Position numbers and translations under genes: made by a program. Of a stretch of 35,755 nt of DNA, positions 4,477 through 26,189 are shown one piece after another. Origin of the DNA: a virus; IMG/VR virus record IMGVR_UViG_3300031521_000209, positions 1 through 35,755 of that record. One strand, 5' to 3'. Below the pieces are notes generated by a model. The model saw only the letters and a list, made by a program, of their open reading frames with translations, was not told where the DNA came from and ran no database searches. Position 1 is the first letter of the stretch, and the number at the start of each line of letters is the position of its first letter.

Positions 4477-5427
4477 ATGGCAAGATACAACAACCAATTT
4501 AAAGGACGACTAAAAGCATACCTGATCAAGCGATTGGGTATGTTTGACTATAAGCATGGTTGGATGAAAGGCAATTGCCCCTCATGTGAAAAAGAGTTTA
4601 AATTTGGGGTAAACATATCTCTGAATAGAACTAACTGTTTTGTATGTGGCTACAGTCCTTCACCCTTGGATATGGTAATGGACTTAGAAGGTCTTCATAC
4701 TTATGCTGAGACCCTAGACTTTTTAGATCATGGAGATTTTGAAGGCTATGAATTTAAAGAAGTTAAGGTAGAACTAAAGGAAAGAATTGATGTATATCTA
4801 CCTGATGGCTTCAGACTACTTAGTTTAGGTAAATCTCAATTAGCCAGGTCTGCAAGAAACTATATTAGTAAAAGGGGGTTTGATATAAAGAAAATGAGTC
4901 GTAAGGGCTGGGGCTATTCTAACAGTGAAAAGTATTTCGGTTACATCATAATACCCTTCTACTCCCACAATAAACTAATATACTTTAATGCAAGAAATTA
5001 TATGTCTACTGGCCCCCGGTATAATAACCCAGATACTGATGTAACTGGGGTAGGCAAGTCAATGATATGGTATAATAAAGATGCATTCTATATGTATAAA
5101 CAAGTTTATATACTAGAGGGTGCCTTTAATGCTGAAACATTGGGGGATAAAGCAACTGCATCTGGTGGCAAGTTTGTTTCAAGGTACCAGATAAATGATA
5201 TTATCAAATCACCTGTTGAACGAATAGTAATTGTATTAGACCCAGATGCTATTGATAAAGCAGTTGACTTGGCATTAAAACTGGTTGATTATAAAAGGGT
5301 GAAAGTAGTAATACTCCCAGATGGTGAGGATGCTAATTCTTTGGGTAAAAAGGAAACAATGAAACACATATACAAAGTTAGATACCAAAACAGGCAAGAT
5401 TTAATTAAACTAAAAAATGACTTATGA
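4477..5427 (+). CDS. DNA primase, DnaG-type (zinc finger plus TOPRIM)
   Basis: The primase makes RNA primers for lagging-strand synthesis. An N-terminal zinc-binding domain has CPSC (Cys34, Cys37) and CFVC (Cys54, Cys57). The centre (about 110-200) is a DnaG-like core with IIIPFYSHNKLIYFNAR. The TOPRIM domain follows, with the catalytic Glu in YILEGAFNAE (Glu214), the DxD in IVLDPDAID (Asp255/Asp257) and a later acidic LPDGEDANSLG. At 316 residues it is shorter than bacterial DnaG and lacks an obvious C-terminal helicase-binding domain, as in T4 gp61-type and other phage primases. It lies directly downstream of the helicase and is ATGA-coupled to the next small gene. Confidence 0.88.
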   Translation: MARYNNQFKGRLKAYLIKRLGMFDYKHGWMKGNCPSCEKEFKFGVNISLNRTNCFVCGYSPSPLDMVMDLEGLHTYAETLDFLDHGDFEGYEFKEVKVELKERIDVYLPDGFRLLSLGKSQLARSARNYISKRGFDIKKMSRKGWGYSNSEKYFGYIIIPFYSHNKLIYFNARNYMSTGPRYNNPDTDVTGVGKSMIWYNKDAFYMYKQVYILEGAFNAETLGDKATASGGKFVSRYQINDIIKSPVERIVIVLDPDAIDKAVDLALKLVDYKRVKVVILPDGEDANSLGKKETMKHIYKVRYQNRQDLIKLKNDL

Positions 5428-8242: not shown

Positions 8243-8650
8243 ATGTCAACTAAAGTAAAGAAAAAGAAGTCACTACTGCCTGACTTGTCCAAGATGGATA
8301 TCCTAAAGCCATTATCAATTACTGATATAGGGTCTAATGGTGATCCATGCTTTGGTAAGGCTTATGATCTGTCAACTAAAGAATGTAAGATGTGTGGAGA
8401 TTCTGAATTATGTGCAATAGTATTTGCCCAGACAATGAATACCACAAGAGGTGAAATTGAGAAGGAAAAACATTTCAAGGACATGGATGTATTAATTGAT
8501 ATTCCAGGTGTAAAAAAATACATGAGGAAATTGAAGCGTACGGGGTATATTAAGAAGGATATTATTACAATGTCCATGGCTAAGTTTGAAATAGCTAAAT
8601 CAGATACAAGGGATATATATAGAAGTTTAAACAATTTAAAAGAAGAGTAA
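8243..8650 (+). CDS. Small Cys-cluster (probable zinc-binding) protein
   Basis: The 135-residue product has a Lys-rich N-terminus and then a compact cysteine cluster: DPCFGKAYDLSTKECKMCGDSELC, that is Cys36, Cys48, Cys51 and Cys57, in a spacing suited to one metal ion. The C-terminal half is helical and basic. I have a sense that the CFGKxYD...CKxCxDxxxC motif recurs in phage proteins next to replication genes, but I cannot name a function. The leader is A-rich (ataaacaaaacaat). The HNH gene overlaps its stop as TAATG. Confidence 0.7.
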   Translation: MSTKVKKKKSLLPDLSKMDILKPLSITDIGSNGDPCFGKAYDLSTKECKMCGDSELCAIVFAQTMNTTRGEIEKEKHFKDMDVLIDIPGVKKYMRKLKRTGYIKKDIITMSMAKFEIAKSDTRDIYRSLNNLKEE

Positions 8651-9156
8651 TGGATGATAATATACCAGGCTTCCCAGGTTACCATATAGCTAGAGGTGGG
8701 AAGTTATACAATAGGGGAAAGCCAAAACCAACGTATGTTCATAAGAATGGGTACTTAAGGTCTAGGTTAAGAAATGAAAAAGGTAAAACTTATAACAAAA
8801 CTATACATAGGCTAGTTGCCATAGCTTGGGTACCAAATCCAAAGCCTGGTATATATAATACTGTATTACATAATGATAATATAAGGTTACACAACTTTGA
8901 TACAAACTTACACTGGGGTACACAACAGGAAAATATAGACCAGGCTATAAAAGATGGTATCATGAATGTAAAGGGTAAGAATAATCCCATGTATGGTGTA
9001 CACAGAGATTGTAGGGGTAAAGTAAACAAAACCTTATCAGGTAATAAGAAAACTCAGGTAAGGGGATTATACAAAACAGGAAACTATAAACTTACTGAGT
9101 TAGCAAAAAAGTTTTCAGTAGGAACTAAGAATATAAAACGAATTATAAACATTTAA
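8650..9156 (+). CDS. HNH homing endonuclease (NUMOD4-HNH-NUMOD type)
   Basis: This free-standing, I-HmuI-like selfish endonuclease has 168 residues. Residues 1-30 (IPGFPGYHIARGGKLYNRGKPK) are a NUMOD4 module. The HNH core follows with IHRLVAIAWVPNP, the catalytic-type His in TVLHNDN, Asn residues in FDTNLHWGTQQENI and the usual short helix. The C-terminal 40 residues (GLYKTGNYKLTELAKKFSVGTKNIKRII) form a DNA-binding NUMOD/HTH. Such enzymes copy themselves into related phages by cutting the empty site. It sits between a Cys-cluster gene and the dCTPase-like gene whose usable start follows closely, consistent with insertion into an intergenic junction. Confidence 0.85.
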   Translation: MDDNIPGFPGYHIARGGKLYNRGKPKPTYVHKNGYLRSRLRNEKGKTYNKTIHRLVAIAWVPNPKPGIYNTVLHNDNIRLHNFDTNLHWGTQQENIDQAIKDGIMNVKGKNNPMYGVHRDCRGKVNKTLSGNKKTQVRGLYKTGNYKLTELAKKFSVGTKNIKRIINI

Positions 9157-9167
9157 AACTTAACATT

Positions 9168-10040
9168 TTGGACATAAGAGATGTAAAAGAAGAACCACAA
9201 GTAGTAGAAGGTGGGATGTATTTAGAAAAGATTTATGAGTTACAAAAGGTATTGGTAGACCACTATGTAAAAATTGAAGGCCTACCACCTTACCCAATTA
9301 GTGTAAACACAAAACCCAGCCAGATAATCCTGAAGGATTTTACGGGTAGGGTAATTGAAGAACTTGCTGAAGGGTTTGAATCTCACCTATTGATTGATGA
9401 ATTAACAAGTAACAACCTTTATTGGAGTGATGAGGATGGGAGTTCTAATGATTATCAACAAATGGTAAACCACCTTCAGAACTTAAATGAAGAACAGGCA
9501 GATGCAATGCATTTCATGACTGAGTTAATGATCTATTGCAACATTCAACCAGATGATATCCAAGCTTGGATTGATGCTTATGTAAAGAAGTACAATTTTA
9601 ATAGTATAAATGCTGGTGCTCCTTATGTTGGTACCGATGGTGATGTAATAGCTAATGCTATAGAATTAGGCTATGCTATATTTGAAGGTGATTTAACTCT
9701 TAGTAGGGAAGGTGTTAACTTGGTTAAATACATTGATGAAGTAAAACTTAAGTATCTACCTGGGGCAAGATACCTATCAATGGAATTGATGGAGTTATCT
9801 GAAAAATTGCTTTGGAGAGTTACCTACCATATCAACATTTCAAGGAACTGTTTGAAAAACAAACCCTGGAAACAGTCTGGTGTTATGACTGATGAAACTC
9901 TATACCAATCTAAAGTAGTTGAAGCATTTGTATACATGATGACTTACTTTGGGTTTATTGGTATGGGAAGCAAGGAGATATACTACTTGTACTTCAAGAA
10001 GAATATGGTTAATCAATTCCGTATTAAATCAAACTATTAA
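9168..10040 (+). CDS. dCTPase/dUTPase-like nucleotide pyrophosphatase (T4 gp56-like)
   Basis: It probably hydrolyses dCTP (and dUTP) to the monophosphate, removing dCTP and supplying dCMP. It belongs to the all-alpha NTP pyrophosphatase/dimeric dUTPase group. Visible signs are KIYELQKVL near the N-terminus, RVIEELAEGFE followed by EEQADAMHFMTELMIYC (ExxE plus ExxD-type metal site), KPWKQSG, then a second acidic helix (KVVEAFVYMMTYFGFIGMG) and the family C-terminus EIYYLYFKKNMVNQFRIKSNY. That end can be lined up with the end of T4 gp56 (IFKLYYLKNAENFARQDRGY). At 290 residues it is longer than gp56 because of a middle insertion. No ATG lies upstream in frame: the start is a TTG at 9168, or ATG at 9216 (274 residues). 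Confidence 0.68.
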   Translation: MDIRDVKEEPQVVEGGMYLEKIYELQKVLVDHYVKIEGLPPYPISVNTKPSQIILKDFTGRVIEELAEGFESHLLIDELTSNNLYWSDEDGSSNDYQQMVNHLQNLNEEQADAMHFMTELMIYCNIQPDDIQAWIDAYVKKYNFNSINAGAPYVGTDGDVIANAIELGYAIFEGDLTLSREGVNLVKYIDEVKLKYLPGARYLSMELMELSEKLLWRVTYHINISRNCLKNKPWKQSGVMTDETLYQSKVVEAFVYMMTYFGFIGMGSKEIYYLYFKKNMVNQFRIKSNY

Positions 10041-10969
10041 TGGGCAAGGTATCTGGCTCAATCCAAGAAAAATGCCACAACTTGGAATTTGCAACCTCCC
10101 AGGAAGCTTGGGAAGGTTTAAATGAAATGTTCATATACCATGATAAAAGGTTATTTAAACATGGAGCATCATTTACATCGGGTATGTCTGCTGTATATAA
10201 CATATTCATAAAGATAAGGAAAGCTTGGGTAGACCCAGAATTCGATTATGGTTTAATGTTTAATTACAGGGAACAGAAATGGACCACTCTAGTGAATAAT
10301 TATTTAAACTTAAATAAACTAGACCTACTTAGGTCTAAAGTTCGCTACTTCCAGTCTAAGTATAACCAAAACTATAATATATCTTACTCATTTGATAACT
10401 CCCATGATAATGGGAAAGGTTGTTTATTAGCTGCAACATTTTCAAGGAGATTAAATGATGACATCCCAGTTATAACTGTAATGTTAAGGTCATCAGAGAT
10501 AACTAAAAGGTTAATATTTGATCTCCTATTAGTACAAAGGATGGCAGAATATGTATATGGTAAAGAAGTAACCTGCATGATAAATATATTTGCAACTCAA
10601 ATGTATTGCAATACAGAAACACTGGTAATGTATAATACTCATAGGCCACTTGCTGATGTACTTGAAGAAAACAAAAAGAAGTGGATGTCAAAGGGTATAG
10701 CAAAAGATTCATGGCCTGAAAGTTTATTAAAAACATTCAATACCTTCATGGATAAACCTGAATCATTTGGGAGTTATAAGGTTTTCTTAAGAACTGCAAA
10801 ATGCTTAAGACCTGATTATTACAAGGGGCACTATAAACCTTTAATTGCAGTTAATATGGTTTTAGAATATGATGAGGGCATTGAATACCCCGAAACCGTC
10901 ATAAGCTTCTCACAAAGAAAAGCATACAAAAAGAAACATAACAAACAACTTAAAAAACTAGTAGTATGA
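10040..10969 (+). CDS. Thymidylate synthase/dCMP hydroxymethylase-family paralogue A (divergent)
   Basis: Residues about 110-200 of this 309-residue protein follow the TS/dCMP-hydroxymethylase core: a Cys (Cys128, GKGCLLAATFSRR), then VITVMLRSSEITKRLIFDLLL and MINIFATQMYCN. The RS (Arg150) lies 22 residues after the Cys. The residue 11 positions after Arg is Asp161, as in T4 gp42, where it favours dCMP over dUMP. The usual PC before the nucleophile is GC, and the His of the HxY sugar-binding motif is Gln (Gln187, Tyr189), so catalysis could be altered or lost. A C-terminal extension (about 200-309) is not family-typical. It starts right after the dCTPase-like gene and overlaps paralogue B by 4 bp. 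It could be a partner subunit or a different base-modifying enzyme. Confidence 0.55.
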   Translation: MGKVSGSIQEKCHNLEFATSQEAWEGLNEMFIYHDKRLFKHGASFTSGMSAVYNIFIKIRKAWVDPEFDYGLMFNYREQKWTTLVNNYLNLNKLDLLRSKVRYFQSKYNQNYNISYSFDNSHDNGKGCLLAATFSRRLNDDIPVITVMLRSSEITKRLIFDLLLVQRMAEYVYGKEVTCMINIFATQMYCNTETLVMYNTHRPLADVLEENKKKWMSKGIAKDSWPESLLKTFNTFMDKPESFGSYKVFLRTAKCLRPDYYKGHYKPLIAVNMVLEYDEGIEYPETVISFSQRKAYKKKHNKQLKKLVV

Positions 10970-11727
10970 GGATTTACGCAAACGCTTACGAGTTAATGTC
11001 AGAAACTGGCAGAAACTTATGGGAAATGGGTGCAGAGGTTAAACCTAAAACTTATCAAGATAAGGTAATTGAGGGTGATGACAACTTTATTACAAAAGAA
11101 CTTATCTGTGAACAGTATTGTTTAACTGACTTACCAGATGAGGATTTATTATTCTTATTTGACCCACGTTCTAAGGACTGGACAAAGGCAGAATTTGTTG
11201 AAAGGGTATCAATTGGTAAAAGCCAAAATCCTGGGGAAGCCTATAAACTTAGGCCAGATCTTTGGGAGCAATTCATAAACAGTAGAGGGAAGTTCGACTA
11301 CAACTATAATGACCGGATGAGGTATGAAAAAGCCTTGTTTAGCAGATTAGAGCTGGATAACTTGTCTATAGTAATAAAGCAACTAATGTTTGACCACCAG
11401 ACAAGGAAGGCAGTATTACCAATCTACACCCTAGATGATGTATCCAAGATACCAGAGGGCAAAAGGATACCTTGTTCAATGTATTATGACTTCTTAGTAA
11501 GGGAAGTAAATGGTGAAGAACAATTAAACATAACCTACCACCAAAGGTCTGCAGATTATGTTACCCACTTTGGTAATGATGTATTCCTTGCCTGGAAACT
11601 AATGCAATATGTTGCTTCACTGATAAAAGTTAAACCAGGGTACCTATACCATACCATAGATTCACTACACAGTTACAAAAAAGACTGGGTAAAACTTAAA
11701 ACATCAGTAGGAGACTTCAAAAAATAA
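10966..11727 (+). CDS. Deoxycytidylate hydroxymethylase-like enzyme, paralogue B
   Basis: This 253-residue member of the thymidylate synthase superfamily probably makes 5-hydroxymethyl-dCMP from dCMP and methylene-tetrahydrofolate. The order of motifs is clear: FDYNYNDRM (like the YxYGxR region), HQTRKAV (the conserved Arg, Arg147), RIPCSMYYDFLVRE with nucleophile Cys170, HQRSADYVTHFGND (Arg194, Ser195), then SLHSY (His235, Tyr237). The discriminating residue 11 positions after Arg194 is Asp205, preceded by Asn, as in the FRND of T4 gp42. Thymidylate synthases have Asn there. Length matches gp42 (246). It lies immediately upstream of DNA polymerase. A dUMP-acting enzyme is the alternative. 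Confidence 0.78.
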   Translation: MRIYANAYELMSETGRNLWEMGAEVKPKTYQDKVIEGDDNFITKELICEQYCLTDLPDEDLLFLFDPRSKDWTKAEFVERVSIGKSQNPGEAYKLRPDLWEQFINSRGKFDYNYNDRMRYEKALFSRLELDNLSIVIKQLMFDHQTRKAVLPIYTLDDVSKIPEGKRIPCSMYYDFLVREVNGEEQLNITYHQRSADYVTHFGNDVFLAWKLMQYVASLIKVKPGYLYHTIDSLHSYKKDWVKLKTSVGDFKK

Positions 11728-11741
11728 TACTACTAACCTGT

Positions 11742-11769
11742 AATGGGAGGACTTAATTGTTCTCCCATT
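11742..11769 (+). promoter_or_regulatory. Perfect hairpin in the DNA polymerase leader
   Basis: AATGGGAG (11742-11749) and CTCCCATT (11762-11769) form an 8-bp perfect stem with a 12-nt loop, with no U-run after it. An upstream in-frame ATG at 11743 lies in the 5' arm. The likely real start at 11785 is 15 nt downstream of the stem, a position that suits a translational operator. Confidence 0.5.
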
Positions 11770-11784
11770 CGTCACCTTATAAAC

Positions 11785-14064
11785 ATGATATCAAGGTACC
11801 ACATAATAAAGAATTTTAAAGAACTTAAACTACTTGTAAAAGCTTGCAAGGAAACTAAGTATGCAAGCTTTGACTTTGAATCTAATGCTAAAAGCATATA
11901 CTCTGATGAGTTCTACCCTACTATACTATCCGTATCATTTCAAGTAGGTTCTTCAGTTATATTACCACTAGCTCATTTTGATTCACCATTCTTATCAGGT
12001 AAAAATAAACCAACCTGGCTTAAGATGTTAGAATACTTTGGTAGACATGTAATTGAGAATCCAGATATAACTAAGGTAGCATGGAATTGGAAGTTTGATA
12101 ATCAGATAATGGCAAGGTACAACATCTGGCATAAGGGTAGAGCCTTAGATGGTATGCTTGCAAAATATCTCCTGGATGAGGAAAGGCCAATGGGTTTAAA
12201 AGATATGGTAAAAAGGTATCTACCTGAATTTTCAGGCTATGAAAATTATGAAGGTAGTAAATTGCCATGGGATAAAAAACCTTTAGAGGGGTTAAGTAAA
12301 TATAGTGGACAAGATTCTGACTGTACCTTACGACTTATGCTATTCTTTGAAAAGAAACTCATTGACTTAGGCTTCTATAGTTTATATAGAAATTTAATTA
12401 TGATGGCTAGCAGAGTACTGGAGGATGCTGAAAGAAATGGTATGAAGCTTGATATTGAACTAAATCATGAACTTGGTATTAAATATGATGCATTAACAGA
12501 AGAGGCCCAAAAGAAACTTAGGGAGATGTCAAGGGTTATGAAGTTTGAAAAGGCTTTAATAAAAGACAGGAGGGAAGCTTATATATCAAAGATAGAGGAT
12601 GAAATTGAAGCTATAAATAATGAGATTGAAGAACTTGATGACCAAAAGAAAATCAATGCAGCTAATAAAAAGATTGATTCCAGGGAGGAAAAAATAAGCA
12701 GGTTAACAGTTGGTGACTTTAGAACTAATGATGAAAAGAAACTTATAGAGCCAATTAACTTTGGTTCACCATTAGTAATGGGGGCTTTACTTTACACCCA
12801 TAAAAAAGGGTTTAAATTCCCCATACAAAACTATACTGATAAAGGTGCACCATCTACAGCTGAAGAGGATATACTAAAACTAAAGGATTATGATAAACAT
12901 GGTTTTATAGATGGGCTTATAGAGTTAAGGGGGTTCCAAACCATTAATTCCACATTTGTAAAAGGTATTGGTGAAAAGGTTGGATCAGATGGTAGGATTC
13001 ACCCTAAGTTTAATATACATGGAACAACTACAGGAAGGCTTAGTTCTAACGACCCAAATTTTCAAAATCTCCCAAGGGTTACAACCAACGAGGATATTAA
13101 AAGGATGATGATACCAGGTGAAGGCAAGATATTCATCATGCTCGATTATTCTCAGGCTGAGTTAAGGGTACTTGCTCATCTTGCAAAAGAAGAAACCATG
13201 CTTATGTGGTTTAGAACTGGTAGGGATATTCACCTTGCTACAGCTTGTAAGAAATACAAAACTGATTATGAGGAAACACTTGTAATATATAAGGATGAAC
13301 AACACCCCGAATATAAAACGTGGAAGAAGAGAAGAAAACAAGCTAAGACAATTAATTTTGGTATAGCTTATGAACAAACTGCTATGAAGTTATCTGAGTC
13401 ACTATCTGAGCCAGGTGCACCAGTTTCAATTGAAGAAGCTCAGGTTGAGTTAGATGCTTGGTTTTTAGAATTTCCAAAGGTAAAGAAATTTATTGAAAAA
13501 CAACATAGGTTTGCAGAGAAACATGGTTGGGTTAAAACAATGTTTGGTAGGAAGAGAAGGTTACCCGGAGTATATAGTGAAGTATATAGAGAATATCTAG
13601 AGGCATTAAGATTTGCATCTAATTCACCTATTCAGGGAACTGCTACTGACTTTGCACTATTCTCATCCATATTAATATGGGAAAAGATTAAACTAGGTGA
13701 GTTACCAAGAATACATGAAAACACAACAGTACATGACTCCATTGTATATGAGGCAGATCCTAAGGATGTAACTCCATTCTTAATCCATGCACTATGGTCA
13801 ATATGCAAGAACCCAAGTACTAAACAGTACTTTGGCTTCCAAATTGATGACGTTGAGATGGATGCTGACTTTGGGGTTGGAAGAAACTATGGTGAAGAAT
13901 TGCCCTTTGTACCAGGCTATGACTATACTAATCTACTATCAAAAGACTTCAATAAAGATGATTATTACAAGGAATTTAATAAAGTACGGGACATCCCTTA
14001 TTCAGATTTTCCAATTAAGTTCAATGATAACTTTAATAAAAGTAAAGCCCTATATGCAAGATAA
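11785..14064 (+). CDS. DNA polymerase, family A (with 3'-5' exonuclease)
   Basis: The main replicative polymerase, 759 residues from the ATG at 11785 (773 if the ATG at 11743 is used). A proofreading DnaQ-like domain comes first: SFDFES (DxE), NWKFDNQIMARYNI, and KYSGQDSDCT for the last Asp. A charged helical insertion (about 255-305, KIEDEIEAINNEIEELDD) follows. The polymerase domain has TGRLSSNDPNFQNLP, motif A MLDYSQAELRVLAHL, motif B KKRRKQAKTINFGIAYEQ and motif C TTVHDSIVYEAD, all intact. There is no N-terminal 5' nuclease domain; that activity is encoded separately at 16983. T4-like relatives of the surrounding genes normally use family B polymerase, so this is a mosaic replisome. Confidence 0.95.
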   Translation: MISRYHIIKNFKELKLLVKACKETKYASFDFESNAKSIYSDEFYPTILSVSFQVGSSVILPLAHFDSPFLSGKNKPTWLKMLEYFGRHVIENPDITKVAWNWKFDNQIMARYNIWHKGRALDGMLAKYLLDEERPMGLKDMVKRYLPEFSGYENYEGSKLPWDKKPLEGLSKYSGQDSDCTLRLMLFFEKKLIDLGFYSLYRNLIMMASRVLEDAERNGMKLDIELNHELGIKYDALTEEAQKKLREMSRVMKFEKALIKDRREAYISKIEDEIEAINNEIEELDDQKKINAANKKIDSREEKISRLTVGDFRTNDEKKLIEPINFGSPLVMGALLYTHKKGFKFPIQNYTDKGAPSTAEEDILKLKDYDKHGFIDGLIELRGFQTINSTFVKGIGEKVGSDGRIHPKFNIHGTTTGRLSSNDPNFQNLPRVTTNEDIKRMMIPGEGKIFIMLDYSQAELRVLAHLAKEETMLMWFRTGRDIHLATACKKYKTDYEETLVIYKDEQHPEYKTWKKRRKQAKTINFGIAYEQTAMKLSESLSEPGAPVSIEEAQVELDAWFLEFPKVKKFIEKQHRFAEKHGWVKTMFGRKRRLPGVYSEVYREYLEALRFASNSPIQGTATDFALFSSILIWEKIKLGELPRIHENTTVHDSIVYEADPKDVTPFLIHALWSICKNPSTKQYFGFQIDDVEMDADFGVGRNYGEELPFVPGYDYTNLLSKDFNKDDYYKEFNKVRDIPYSDFPIKFNDNFNKSKALYAR

Positions 14065-14497
14065 AATAACACAAATCAGTAAGATTAAGCGGGATGTATT
14101 AACTGTACACTATAAGGGTGAGAAAATAAACATAAACATTTCCCAGGAATTATCCATAAGTGAAAATGTTATCAACTCTCAATTAAAAGAGAGTCCTTCT
14201 AGTTATGCATTCCTTTGTTTACTAAGAGATAAACAAGTAAAACTCCGTGATACTCTAGAAAGGAGCAAGGATGTTGCCTATAGTGAAGCTTATATATATT
14301 ATAAGGGGTCTGGTAGTGGCATTACCAATGAAACAGCACAACATAAGGCTAACTCTAACCCCAAATATAAAAGCTTATATAAAAAATACCTAAGGGCAGT
14401 TAGTAAGGCAAGCAACTTTATTTCAATATGCAGGGCCTATGAGGGTAGGGAAAAGATATTACAAACAGTATCAGCTAATCTACGTAGAGAACACTAA
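14054..14497 (+). CDS. UvsY-like recombination mediator
   Basis: The likely start is the ATG at 14054, overlapping the polymerase stop by 11 bp. The open frame extends further upstream only as a shadow of the polymerase. The 147-residue product has a basic beta-like N-terminus, then RDKQVKLRDTLERSKDVAYSEAYIYYKGSGSG, a short polar turn, NPKYKSLYKKYLRAVSKASNFISICRAYEGREKILQTVSANLRRE. The layout (long helix, YYxGxGxG turn, then helices with a C-terminal DNA-binding end) resembles T4 UvsY (ARLDYYSGRGDG...LDFCSGALDAIKSRG), which loads UvsX onto gp32-covered DNA. UvsX and gp32-like genes follow just downstream. Alignment is by eye, so the call is moderate. Confidence 0.58.
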   Translation: MQDKITQISKIKRDVLTVHYKGEKININISQELSISENVINSQLKESPSSYAFLCLLRDKQVKLRDTLERSKDVAYSEAYIYYKGSGSGITNETAQHKANSNPKYKSLYKKYLRAVSKASNFISICRAYEGREKILQTVSANLRREH

Positions 14498-14506
14498 GAA
14501 TTTCTA

Positions 14507-14519
14507 TAAACTATTAATA
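14507..14519 (+). promoter_or_regulatory. Shared leader motif TAAACTATTAATA (copy 1)
   Basis: This 13-nt AT-rich string lies 16 nt before the GroES-like start and recurs at 21233-21245, 22 nt before the PD-(D/E)XK nuclease start. Neither site has a TAnnTTTG box. It could be part of a phage-specific promoter or a leader, but in AT-rich DNA chance is not excluded. Confidence 0.25.
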
Positions 14520-14535
14520 TATAAACAAAAACATT

Positions 14536-14946
14536 ATGAATTTAGCAACAATGCTTGGCCAGTCTCTTATTTCAAAAGATACTGCAATGTTAATCAACAG
14601 TGAGTTATACAAAAGGGGTCAGGTAACTGAGAACCGGGTTATAATCATTACACCTAAAGAAATTGAGGGTAGGACTGCATCTGGTATAATCATACCCGGA
14701 GAAGTAACAGAAGGGGTACCAAGAAAGGGTATCTGTGTTCAAATGGGAGAGTTCACTGAAGAGAATCGGACCTATACCTCTGTAGTTGGGATTGGTAATG
14801 TACTTACCTATGGCTTATATGCTGGTAAGGAAATTGATCTACTAGAACCCCTATTAGTAAAAGGTTTTAACCCTGACAAACATGAACTAAGGTGTATATC
14901 AGTTAATGAGATTATGTATTCTGAGTATCCAATTAAACTAACATAA
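14536..14946 (+). CDS. GroES-like co-chaperonin (T4 gp31-type role)
   Basis: The 136-residue protein has the GroES beta-barrel pattern: ENRVIIITPKEIEGRTASGIIIPGEV (in the place of DRVLV...KTxGGIxLP with the mobile loop), RKGICVQMGEF, then GNVLTYGLYAGKEIDL (like GDxVLFxKYxGxEI) and a final RCISVNEIMYSE strand. It should cap the host GroEL cavity for folding of large phage proteins. It is longer than GroES (about 95) because of a 30-residue N-terminal extension and a wider central loop. No GroEL gene is in the window. It sits between the UvsY-like and SSB genes with an A-rich leader. Confidence 0.78.
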   Translation: MNLATMLGQSLISKDTAMLINSELYKRGQVTENRVIIITPKEIEGRTASGIIIPGEVTEGVPRKGICVQMGEFTEENRTYTSVVGIGNVLTYGLYAGKEIDLLEPLLVKGFNPDKHELRCISVNEIMYSEYPIKLT

Positions 14947-16990: not shown

Positions 16991-17879
16991 TTTATTAATA
17001 ATTGATGGAGAAAATCTATTACACAGGGCATACCATAAGTTCTTAGGCTTCAAGTCTACTGAAGGAGTTCCAACTGGTGCAATATATGGTTTTCTAAAGA
17101 TCCTACACTCTAATATATTTAGGTTCAAGCCTGAATATGTTATTGTTACATTTGATAATGGCAGATCAAAACATAGGACTAACATACTTCCAGGTTATAA
17201 GACACGACCTAAAAAACTGGGTATGGATTATGAGTCATTACAAAAACAAAAAAAGTTGATAATGAAGATCCTTAGAAGGTTGGGAGTACCTTATGTATTT
17301 GATAAATCATTCAGTAATGAATGGGAGGCTGATGATTACATTGCTTACTTAGCTAAAACCTTTGAGGGTGAAGTAACTATACTATCCTCTGACAAAGATT
17401 TTCACCAACTGATATCTAAAAGGGTAAAGGTAATGAGCCCATCTAAAGACCAATTAATCACTGAAGTTAATTGCATAAAGTTAACTGGGTATAATCCTGA
17501 CCAATGTGTTGATTGGTTATCAATGGTGGGGGATGAATCCGATAGCATACCCGGCTATAGAGGCATTGGAGAAGTAAAAGCTACTGCATTACTTAAGAAA
17601 TATAACTGTATAGAGAAATTTATAATGGGCGATTACAAAGAAAGTAGGGTAAATAAGCAAACACTTAATGAAGTAATGACTAAGAATAGGCACCTTATTG
17701 ATCTTAACTTCTTTATAAGAAAATACCCAATGGTAAAAAACATACCCATAAAATATGGGAAGGATGAATTTATAAACAGGAAGCTAGTAACCATGTTTAA
17801 TGGGTACTCTCTATCCTCATTCCAGTCTACTGAATTTATAAACACCTTTAAAGAATTAAGCAAATGGAAAGTAAAGTAA
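16983..17879 (+). CDS. 5'-3' exonuclease/flap endonuclease (FEN, T4 RNase H-like)
   Basis: It removes RNA primers and 5' flaps, the activity missing from the separate polymerase. Metal-binding acidic residues are in LLIIDGENLLHRAY, VTFDNGRSKHR, NEWEADDYIAYLA and VTILSSDKDFHQL. A helix-3-turn-helix DNA-binding motif follows in VGDESDSIPGYRGIGEVKATALLKKY. Length about 298 residues, as in T4 rnh (305) and T7/T5-type exonucleases. Three in-frame ATGs (16971, 16977, 16983) are possible. I chose 16983 because MNSLLIIDG is the usual distance from the first Asp. All overlap the end of the UvsX gene. Confidence 0.9.
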   Translation: MNSLLIIDGENLLHRAYHKFLGFKSTEGVPTGAIYGFLKILHSNIFRFKPEYVIVTFDNGRSKHRTNILPGYKTRPKKLGMDYESLQKQKKLIMKILRRLGVPYVFDKSFSNEWEADDYIAYLAKTFEGEVTILSSDKDFHQLISKRVKVMSPSKDQLITEVNCIKLTGYNPDQCVDWLSMVGDESDSIPGYRGIGEVKATALLKKYNCIEKFIMGDYKESRVNKQTLNEVMTKNRHLIDLNFFIRKYPMVKNIPIKYGKDEFINRKLVTMFNGYSLSSFQSTEFINTFKELSKWKVK

Positions 17880-18514
17880 AACGTATTATGTTTGTGGGTC
17901 CCAGTGGGATAGGCAAGACCCACCTATCCAAGTTTATTGCAGATAAATATGGTATACCATTCATAAGTGGTTCATACTCTGATATGGTACCATCAACTAA
18001 AGATCAAAGCCATGCTGATATGGTAAGCAAGGATTCAAAGGTAATTTATAATGAAGATTATAAGTTGCTATGGGCAAGGGCAAAGGTATACTTAGGCTAT
18101 ACTACTAAAGGTTTAAGTTTTGTAACCGACAGGTCATATATTGATAGCATTGCATATTTCATATACAAACTTTCAAAAGTAATACCCAAGTGTGAAATTG
18201 AAGGTTTTGAACATGCAGCAAAAATGCTATTATTCAGGGACTGTACCCACCTAATTGTAATGCAATGTACTGAATCAATGGTTGATACCTGGAGAGTTGA
18301 AAATAATGAAAAGAGGATATTAAATACATATTTCCAGTGGATGGTATCTATGGTAATGATAGGAGTACTTAAAAGATTGGGCTTAAGAACTGGTAAATAC
18401 TTTGGCCATACATACAGTTACATGCCAATGGGTATAAAAGTACTTGTTTTAAATAACAGGAACATGGAGAATAACAAAGTACTAATCAGTAAATTCTTGG
18501 GCAATGTCAAATAA
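17864..18514 (+). CDS. P-loop (deoxy)nucleotide kinase-like protein
   Basis: The 216-residue ATP-binding protein has Walker A GPSGIGKTHLSKFIADKYG (GPSGIGKT, residues 12-19), then IPFISGSYSDMVPS, a DRSYIDSIAYFIYKL motif (like the DRxxxDxxAY of NMP/nucleoside kinases), and a lid-like segment with VENNEKRI. This matches small nucleotide kinases rather than AAA+ motors. With a dCTPase- and hydroxymethylase-like set upstream, a role like T4 gp1, phosphorylating the modified dCMP, is attractive but inferred. Thymidylate kinase or a nucleoside kinase are alternatives. It overlaps the FEN gene by 16 bp and the gp47-like gene by 11 bp. Confidence 0.68.
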   Translation: MESKVKRIMFVGPSGIGKTHLSKFIADKYGIPFISGSYSDMVPSTKDQSHADMVSKDSKVIYNEDYKLLWARAKVYLGYTTKGLSFVTDRSYIDSIAYFIYKLSKVIPKCEIEGFEHAAKMLLFRDCTHLIVMQCTESMVDTWRVENNEKRILNTYFQWMVSMVMIGVLKRLGLRTGKYFGHTYSYMPMGIKVLVLNNRNMENNKVLISKFLGNVK

Positions 18515-25748: not shown

Positions 25749-26189
25749 ATGGCTAAGAAAGCAAAAGTAAAAGAAGTAACAGTAGAGTCTACAGAATTTT
25801 TAGGCGGTGGCCTTATCAAAATCACCATGTCGGATGGTTCAATCATCTTTGCATTAACAATCACCCAGGAAGTTATCGACCTAATTGCACCGGAAGCTGA
25901 TGATGATGATGACGATGATTCGGACGATGATGATGATGATGATGACGATGATTCGGACGATGATGATGATGATGATGACGATGATTCGGACGATGATGAT
26001 GATGACGAAGTCACTGCAGAATCACTTGCCGAAATGGATTATGAAGAACTGGAAGATGTCTGCGATGACAAAGACCTTGACACTGATCCTGATGACTTCG
26101 ATGAGGAAGAAGTTGAAAAACTCCGGTCTGCCATCGCAAAAGAACTGGGCATCAAACTTCCCAAGGCTGCCAAAAAAGGCAAAAAATAA
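25749..26189 (+). CDS. Highly expressed acidic protein with Asp10-Ser repeats
   Basis: The 146-residue product has three parts: a beta-like N-terminus (KEVTVESTEFLGGGLIKITMSDGSIIFAL), an almost pure Asp/Ser stretch (about 51-86) made of D10-S units, and a C-terminal helical domain (ESLAEMDYEELEDVCDDKDLDTD...VEKLRSAIAKELGI) like the small SAP/Rho-N-type helical folds. It ends in a basic KKGKK. Ile is ATC or ATT, never ATA, and CGG is used for Arg, unlike the neighbours' ATA/AGG preference, so translation is probably strong. It could mimic DNA or buffer basic proteins; this is inference. It has an A-rich leader, and a structured terminator follows. Confidence 0.85.
   Translation: MAKKAKVKEVTVESTEFLGGGLIKITMSDGSIIFALTITQEVIDLIAPEADDDDDDDSDDDDDDDDDDSDDDDDDDDDDSDDDDDDEVTAESLAEMDYEELEDVCDDKDLDTDPDDFDEEEVEKLRSAIAKELGIKLPKAAKKGKK
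25899..26006 (+). repeat. 33-bp in-frame tandem repeat (Asp10-Ser)
   Basis: GAT/GAC codons interrupted by TCG recur with an 11-codon period: a 27-bp first unit (25899-25925), two full 33-bp units (25926-25958, 25959-25991) and a partial fourth (25992-26006). The two full units are identical in base sequence, including the position of GAC and TCG, which points to recent duplication and probable length variation. Confidence 0.9.

Follow-up and report, generated by a model that had tools for sequence, protein, structure and literature searches.

A recurrent phage gene cassette encoding two thymidylate synthase-fold proteins as a candidate source of C5-substituted deoxycytidine nucleotides

What do three overlapping genes placed immediately ahead of a phage DNA polymerase gene do to cytosine? 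The question is raised by virus record IMGVR_UViG_3300031521_000209, whose 35,755 bases (probably a fragment) form the whole stretch of DNA analyzed here, referred to below as the window; Bacteroidota are a plausible candidate host of this phage. In the initial annotation the three genes, here named A, B1 and B2, were read as the T4 route to 5-hydroxymethylcytosine, with A as a gp56-like enzyme acting on deoxycytidine triphosphate (dCTP), B2 as a hydroxymethylase of deoxycytidine monophosphate (dCMP) and B1 as a second paralogue. The genes lie on the + strand, overlap by a few bases and, as had been stated, run directly into the gene of a family A DNA polymerase:

9168-10040, + strand: gene A, nucleoside triphosphate pyrophosphatase (dUTPase_2 family), a predicted dCTPase/dUTPase resembling T4 gp56; TTG start.
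10040-10969, + strand: gene B1, diverged protein with a predicted thymidylate synthase (TS) fold; Cys128, Arg150, Asp161; phrog_34294, of unknown function.
10966-11727, + strand: gene B2, TS-superfamily enzyme, predicted to be dCMP-specific; own subfamily, with Arg at position -3 from the catalytic Cys.
11743-14064, + strand: family A DNA polymerase with a 3'-5' exonuclease domain (PF00476, 1.2e-73; PF01612, 9.3e-18); end of the cassette.

The type of pathway (a dCTPase-family enzyme, a predicted dCMP-specific TS-superfamily enzyme and its paralogue ahead of a polymerase) proved to be well supported, and more strongly than could be known from the window, since the cassette recurs in many phages, some of which also carry a dCMP deaminase and a thymidylate kinase. 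We therefore favour, with moderate confidence, the reading that A-B1-B2 is a cassette making a C5-substituted deoxycytidine nucleotide. It is likely that the C5-modified cytosine would be made at the nucleotide level, and 5-hydroxymethyl-dCMP or a relative is the single most likely, if unproven, product of B2.

B2 matched the Pfam family Thymidylat_synt (PF00303) above the cut-off (1e-16). Across an alignment of 48 different B2 sequences, taken from the window, from IMG/VR loci and, in one case, from a genome contig, Cys170 and Arg194 were present in 48/48 rows and Asp205 in 47/47 readable rows, one row being gapped. Asp205 aligns with the N177 position of the E. coli TS. According to PMC6400193, Asp at position 177 favours cytosine over uracil, and in the MetaGPA study TS proteins from modified-cytosine contigs mostly have Asp177 (PMC8670742). 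The cytosine-selecting Asp (Asp179 in T4 gp42), the nucleophilic Cys and the TS fold are thus all found in B2, while the two features of ThyA, Asn177 and a C-terminal tail, are replaced by Asp205 and a short C-terminus. The latter extends 16 residues beyond Tyr237, compared with 28 in T4 gp42 and 55 in the phi3T TS; a TS-like tail is absent from B2, as it is from T4 gp42, which is described as lacking it in PMC6400193. Glu45 of B2 was aligned with the catalytic Glu60 of T4 in 42/48 rows, in an N-terminal region where the alignment is unsure. At the position of E. coli TS Asp169, which we take to be the Asp that serves the folate (the title of a PDB entry for a D169N mutant agrees), B2 keeps an Asp, Asp197. 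This suggests that the C5 substituent is most likely a one-carbon group derived from methylene-tetrahydrofolate.

Gene A matched dUTPase_2 (PF08761) with an E-value of 1.9e-7 (31.9 bits, against a curated cut-off of 22.9), and phrog_173 is common to A (6.8e-9) and T4 gp56 (5.8e-39). A profile of 17 relatives of A aligned by hhalign with gp56 residues 115-171 (probability 81%, E 1.2e-5), which bears out the gp56-like C-terminus noted earlier. Residues E64, E65, E68, E109 and D112 are invariant in 17/17 relatives; these are presumably the metal-binding ExxE ... ExxD residues of dUTPase_2 pyrophosphatases. The TTG start agrees with an M-D-x-R start common to 17 rows, in two of which (L007 and L025) the start was picked to fit it. 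The motifs quoted in the initial annotation are present in the given frames (KIYELQ, EELAE and EEQADAMHF in A; Cys170, Arg194 and Asp205 in B2) and exceed chance, as A and B2 lie above their Pfam cut-offs and residues are kept in relatives; KIYELQ is not kept in every relative. Phmmer and profile searches with A against PDB sequences gave nothing useful.

A separate trimeric dUTPase (PF00692) was detected in 9/13 related records (G003, G004, G005, G006, G007, G010, G016, MT121964 and MT121960), in each case 18-902 nucleotides upstream of A. With this enzyme beside it, A is more likely to act on dCTP, as T4 gp56 does. The trimeric dUTPase is unrelated to enzyme A; in G003 its open reading frame (ORF) is probably the same one that gives a dCTP-deaminase-like match.

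B1 matched no Pfam family at the cut-off and no NCBIfam family; against PDB sequences, phmmer found no useful match and a profile search gave one chance-level match. Its affiliation comes from its AlphaFold2 model, which has a predicted local distance difference test score (pLDDT) of 86. In Foldseek, the model matched MilA (8.4e-6), AfhB (4e-5) and the entries for the T4 dCMP hydroxymethylase (dCH; 2e-4 to 6e-4), with one TS acting on deoxyuridine monophosphate (dUMP) among them, at large root-mean-square deviations (rmsd) and TM-scores of 0.27-0.39 on the query. VIA gave AfhB (Z 13.6, rmsd 4.0, 182 residues aligned), MilA (12.9, 3.7, 175) and dUMP TS at Z 10.4 or less. Judged by this model, B1 is a strongly diverged TS fold; both searches placed the models of B1 and B2 within the TS superfamily, in line with the paralogy first noted.

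Cys128, Arg150 and Asp161 of B1 are invariant in 57/57 sequences, and the Cys, Arg and Asp are kept in 32/32 aligned rows, among them rows from actinobacterial and proteobacterial phages. B1 and B2 share a spacing of 11 residues from the Arg to the Asp. When 72 B1 rows were compared with 60 B2 rows by hhalign, the probability was 41.7% (E 2.7e-4) with Cys/Cys, Arg/Arg and Asp/Asp in register; smaller first sets had given 2%. It might be supposed that B1 is a non-catalytic relative that does nothing but stabilise B2 or tether it to the replisome, given that the Arg pair lent between TS subunits has no clear equivalent in B1 and that the B1 of the window has a basic C-terminal tail (read by eye). 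A pure scaffold would not need an active-site Cys, Arg and Asp, so their invariance argues against this view, which we consider unlikely.

Two B1 genes together with B2, i.e. three TS-fold paralogues in or nearly in a row, were seen in L007, L008, L010, L025, L026, L027 and L124, several of them from human faeces. For a B1-like protein, phrog_34294 or phrog_13667, no paper was found among the matches listed, in a search that covered titles and the starts of abstracts and left bioRxiv and most subscription papers outside; with this limited scope, the negative argues only weakly for novelty.

When the B1 alignment was searched against IMG/VR, 60 loci were obtained, and one genome contig found via B2 brought the number to 61; four of these carry a B1 identical to that of the window, and several are on contigs already found via B2. 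B1 and B2 occur together in 57/61 loci, and A, B1, B2 and the polymerase in 45/61; two B1 genes were present in 4/61. The four loci without B2 are L107 (whose record has a TS just outside the locus boundary), L093 and L110 (from records shorter than 10 kb) and L121. The polymerase is immediately preceded in 13/61 loci by a dCMP deaminase-like ORF, recognised by its motifs HAExN and PCxxC. The polymerase is split into two ORFs in L006, L015 and L016, and the polymerase ORF is much enlarged, to 1092-1421 amino acids, in L013, L025 and L026, as would be seen with introns or inteins. The cassette of L124 lies on a 61-kb contig, perhaps of a phage, in the metagenome bin Lapin-012, labelled Dysosmobacter (Bacillota).

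The cassette is also present in named phages. Gene 52 of Gordonia phage Vine, annotated as hypothetical and adjoining a 'thymidylate synthase', is B1-like; by tblastn it matched 85 phage records at E-values of 1e-3 or below, and the B2 of Vine matched 105 at 1e-10 or below. In Mycobacterium phage Muddy, Serratia phage Serbin, Pseudomonas phage PMBT14, Streptomyces phage KimJongPhill and Microbacterium phage Huwbert, the annotated order is thymidylate kinase, dUTPase/pyrophosphohydrolase, hypothetical protein and thymidylate synthase, on to DNA polymerase I, with one small ORF separating the hypothetical protein from the thymidylate synthase in Huwbert. The thymidylate kinase was upstream in 5/5 neighbourhoods read, that of Vine not being in view. 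In four of these five phages, all but Muddy (in which none is annotated), the polymerase comes after a deaminase of dCMP or cytidine; Vine also has the deaminase, with more genes intervening, which makes 5/6 named phages.

A B1 profile that included the Vine row matched Huwbert (2.9e-17), Muddy (1.2e-16), KimJongPhill (3.1e-12), Serbin (2.2e-5), Pseudomonas phage STP12 (6.6e-5) and PMBT14 (1.1e-4); without Vine only STP12 (6.8e-4) and Huwbert (3.9e-3) remained, all of these E-values being calculated over the ORFs of 12 loci. In STP12, B2 is followed by a second B1-like ORF (4.3e-4), and in Polewnik B1 was assigned by position and residues alone. Independent ties are provided by phrog_34294, which links B1 of the window (2.7e-8) to Serbin gp51 (2.1e-7), and by phrog_12184, which links A (1.3e-16) to Muddy gp48 (1.8e-77). 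The A profile matched Serbin gp52 and Muddy gp48; it found no match in the KimJongPhill, Huwbert, PMBT14, STP12 and Polewnik loci, where genes are called A-type by annotation or position. The pair formed by B1 with B2, recurring across phages of Gordonia, Mycobacterium, Streptomyces, Microbacterium, Serratia and Pseudomonas, is the new part of these results; no earlier report of this cassette or modification was found in the literature searched.

Several observations weigh against the favoured reading of the cassette: (i) although the first solved structures matched by the B2 profile are dCMP and CMP enzymes (AfhB, 1.6e-11; MilA, 1.9e-7), ahead of dUMP TS (from 9.9e-7), which speaks for that reading, AfhB, the nearest solved relative by profile, is titled in the PDB as a flavin-dependent dCMP hydroxylase, not a hydroxymethylase; the T4 hydroxymethylase was absent from the best 60 PDB profile matches; (ii) a single-sequence search with B2 placed dUMP TS first (3.6e-4) and AfhB after it (8e-4), and Foldseek with the B2 model gave MilA on top, dUMP TS mixed in from rank 5 and AfhB at rank 12; (iii) the B1 profile had no relation to the T4-type, AfhB-type and dUMP TS sets (0.3-2.5%); (iv) the residue at -3 from the Cys of B2 is Arg in 48/48 sequences and in 26/26 of a wider set, and the residue at -2 from the catalytic Tyr is Tyr in 17/26 and His in 9/26, in place of the Asp/Glu and Ser/Thr of the hydroxymethylase signature; (v) L121, a 61-kb record, carries A, B1, a dCMP deaminase-like ORF and the polymerase with no TS match, so that B1 may stand without B2 at least once; (vi) dCMP deaminase (PF00383) was found in 0/10 close records, and the trimeric dUTPase (PF00692) was not found in contig G001 (56,346 bases), which continues the window DNA upstream and is called near-identical because three sampled 200-base words match exactly; (vii) neither a glycosyltransferase nor another decorating enzyme was seen in 25 window ORFs and in 34 chosen ORFs of an 88-kb relative (out of 70 of at least 130 amino acids, the other 36 being skipped, mostly as structural or already identified), which agrees with the initial remark that no glucosyltransferase was visible; and (viii) a C5-cytosine methyltransferase-like gene is present in 5/13 records, the five longest of the 13.

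The last point bears on the idea that cytosine is replaced throughout the phage DNA. The methyltransferase-like gene lies at L028:6070-7149 (G001, upstream of the window), near a terminase gene, with relatives in L043, L045, L046 and L047, and its product could act as a DNA modifier of its own. Full substitution would leave such an enzyme no cytosine to act on, so the gene weighs against total replacement. Its catalytic motif is unusual (P-[NSD]-C-G-x-S-S) and its first motif is altered.

The prominence of dUMP TS in the single-sequence search could be taken to mean that the genes merely supply thymidylate, with A as a dUTPase and B2 as a divergent synthase of deoxythymidine monophosphate (dTMP), and the public labels, among the matches listed, are indeed mostly 'thymidylate synthase' for B2-type and 'dUTPase' for A-type proteins. 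This is, in our view, very improbable. B2 has Asp for Asn at position 177 and no TS-like tail, the trimeric dUTPase described above lies near A in 9/13 records, and a separate ThyX or true TS is encoded in some of the same genomes. ThyX was found in 3/13 related records, among them G001 (L028:4873-5556, - strand, away from the cassette); in Huwbert, a true TS, with Leu at -3 and with Asn177, lies next to B2; and the uncultured MW202777 has ThyX beside B2, a record in which a B1 profile search found no match and a 0.8-kb gap precedes B2. In G001, Huwbert and MW202777, B2 is therefore not needed for dTMP.

If B2 modifies dCMP, which C5 product would it make? The signature of T4-type hydroxymethylases, as given in PMC6400193, consists of Asp/Glu at -3 from the Cys and Ser/Thr at -2 from the catalytic Tyr. 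Elsewhere in our alignment, the -3 residue is Asp in T4-type rows, Glu in two 5-hydroxy-dCMP synthase rows and Leu in two dUMP TS rows. Judged by these residues, B2 is not a T4-type hydroxymethylase, and the claim that 5-hydroxymethylcytosine is the product runs against the published signature; sequence does not establish it. In a tree of 35 rows, the 27 B2-type rows formed one group (support 95/93), apart from the T4-type rows (3, one of them labelled by its residues only) and the 5-hydroxy-dCMP enzymes (2 rows); the placement of SPO1 and Eleri, both on long branches, is unsure.

The ranking of AfhB raises the possibility that B2 is a flavin-dependent dCMP 5-hydroxylase and that the DNA carries 5-hydroxycytosine or a derivative; AfhB matches the TS-family enzyme of Mosigvirus, whose DNA contains arabinosylated 5-hydroxycytosine. 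Besides being the best PDB profile match of B2, AfhB was the top VIA match of B1 and of the B2 model (pLDDT 88.6), for which it reached Z 20.1 (rmsd 3.1, 219 residues aligned), tied with MilA at 19.9 (2.9, 225), the best natural dUMP TS being at 18.5 (3.3, 234). The B2 profile aligned slightly better with the AfhB-type pair (99.0% by hhalign) than with the T4-type (98.6%) or TS (98.2%) sets, and neither B2 nor AfhB has a TS-like C-terminal tail. The structure scores lie close together and so do not by themselves decide the function; no T4 hydroxymethylase chain appeared among the best 50 VIA matches of B1 and of B2 or the best 50 Foldseek matches of B2, which does not exclude kinship. We nevertheless think a hydroxylase quite unlikely: B2 has Arg where the AfhB-type enzymes, of which two rows were compared, have Glu at -3, and Asp where they have Asn at the 169 position; the two types form separate supported groups in the tree; and no sugar-transfer family was seen among the ORFs scanned.

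In Xanthomonas phage XP12, 5-methyl-dCMP is made by a dCMP C5-methylase, and B2 might be another such enzyme. The exchange Asn177Asp alone can convert a TS to act on dCMP with 5-methyl-dCMP as the product, as reported in PMC8670742, and Arg at -3 is neither the Asp/Glu of hydroxymethylases nor proof against methylation. Set against this, B2 lacks the C-terminal tail with which, according to PMC6400193, methylating TS enzymes cover the folate, and we give a methylase a slim chance.

For the cassette as a source of a C5-substituted deoxycytidine nucleotide, the following mechanism can be proposed. A would split dCTP, and perhaps deoxyuridine triphosphate, to the monophosphate, starving the polymerase of normal dCTP. 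In B2, Cys170 would attack C6 of dCMP while Asp205 holds the cytosine and Arg194 the phosphate, and a substituent would be placed at C5. Kinases of the phage or host would then raise the modified nucleotide to the triphosphate, which the adjacent polymerase would build into DNA. B1, with its own Cys/Arg/Asp set, may be a partner in a heterodimer with B2 or may perform a second C5 step.

A bolder and rather unlikely extension of this scheme is that B1 and B2 together constitute a cytidylate-modifying enzyme of two proteins, present in phages from several bacterial phyla, in which B1 couples a second nucleophile to yield a new hypermodified cytosine before polymerisation. B2 would make an exocyclic-methylene or hydroxymethyl dCMP and B1 would reuse the Cys-C6 chemistry; the second B1-like gene of the gut-type relatives and STP12 would permit a third step, and the C5-methyltransferase-like protein could act on the modified cytosine in DNA.

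The cassette resembles the T4 pathway in combining a dCTPase-family enzyme with an Asp177-type TS-superfamily enzyme that lacks a TS-like tail, near a DNA polymerase, and in the deaminase-like ORF of 13/61 related loci. The differences lie in B2, which has Arg for Asp145 and Tyr/His for Ser94 and makes up a separate clade, in the presence of B1 as a further TS-fold protein, and in the polymerase, which is of family A. The T4 pathway also includes the gp1 kinase and the dCMP deaminase cd; in the window phage neither gp1 nor a glucosyltransferase was identified. AfhB (PDB 9iqu, 9iqc) shares with B2 the (predicted) dCMP substrate, the missing tail and the closest profile relationship, and differs in Glu at -3, Asn at 169 and clade. 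AfhB and the TS-family protein of Mosigvirus APCEc01 have identical aligned stretches, from which we infer that they are the same protein; its use of flavin is taken from the PDB titles. Mosigvirus makes 5-hydroxy-dCMP with a TS-superfamily enzyme, as stated in PMC13390438. In two Mosigvirus-type AfhB neighbourhoods (L049 and L050) the B1 profile found no match, the gene beside the TS-family enzyme included. MilA is likewise a cytosine-specific TS-superfamily enzyme, the second profile match of B2 and the top Foldseek match of both B1 and B2; to our knowledge it has no A or B1 partner. It differs in acting on cytidine monophosphate, in mildiomycin synthesis (PMC5175136).

The operons of Vine, Muddy, KimJongPhill, Huwbert, Serbin and PMBT14 show the same order, with B1-type and B2-type genes before polymerase I, and differ from the window in the thymidylate kinase upstream, in the deaminase that mostly lies downstream and in the extra genes between in Vine and Huwbert; their B1 is so diverged that profiles tie it weakly to that of the window. 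The similarly ordered operon of AXL3 (pyrophosphatase, a 327-amino-acid gene, 'thymidylate synthase' and dCMP deaminase) was rejected as a member, its TS having Asp at -3 and its 327-amino-acid protein being a P-loop protein rather than B1. By these residues AXL3 is a hydroxymethylase-like analogue and is not counted as support; its DNA resisted all of 37 restriction enzymes except the two whose sites consist of A and T alone (PMC7504290).

Should the proposed pathway be correct, a large set of cultured phages would carry modified cytosine, produced by a TS subfamily whose active site is unlike those of the known hydroxymethylase and hydroxylase, together with a partner that annotation lists as hypothetical. 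The set would include mycobacteriophage Muddy, a phage already employed therapeutically. Altered cytosine would help to hide phage DNA from bacterial defences, and the finding would bear on restriction, CRISPR escape and the sequencing of these phages. Many cassette-bearing phages are in culture, which makes the prediction testable at once.

Further downstream in the window, one more ORF had been connected with the pathway:

17864-18514, + strand: P-loop ATPase/kinase-like ORF, candidate nucleotide kinase (AAA_28, 1.4e-7; phrog_2107 thymidylate kinase, 1.2e-4).

The ORF exists and was matched in 7/10 related records, G001 included; its matches are limited to general P-loop and weak thymidylate kinase similarity, and the gp1-like role proposed for it stays conjectural.

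The ratio of observed to expected CpG dinucleotides is 0.25 for the window and 0.21 for L026; it spans 0.30-0.77 over 56 related IMG/VR loci and is 0.97 in a T4 stretch, 0.38 in SPO1 and 0.81-1.05 in Muddy, PMBT14, KimJongPhill and Serbin. As SPO1 is low and the latter four phages, which have B1 and B2, are near normal, CpG depletion does not follow the cassette. The window and G001 are shifted by one base between window positions 5,000 and 15,000; this one-base difference in length falls at 14064-14536, between the polymerase and the next gene, and an ORF that overlaps the end of the polymerase may thus not be intact in both. HNH-type ORFs lie around the cassette, with a weak NUMOD3 match at 8650-9156, and positions 25749-26189 encode a very acidic protein with a repeated Asp/Ser run.

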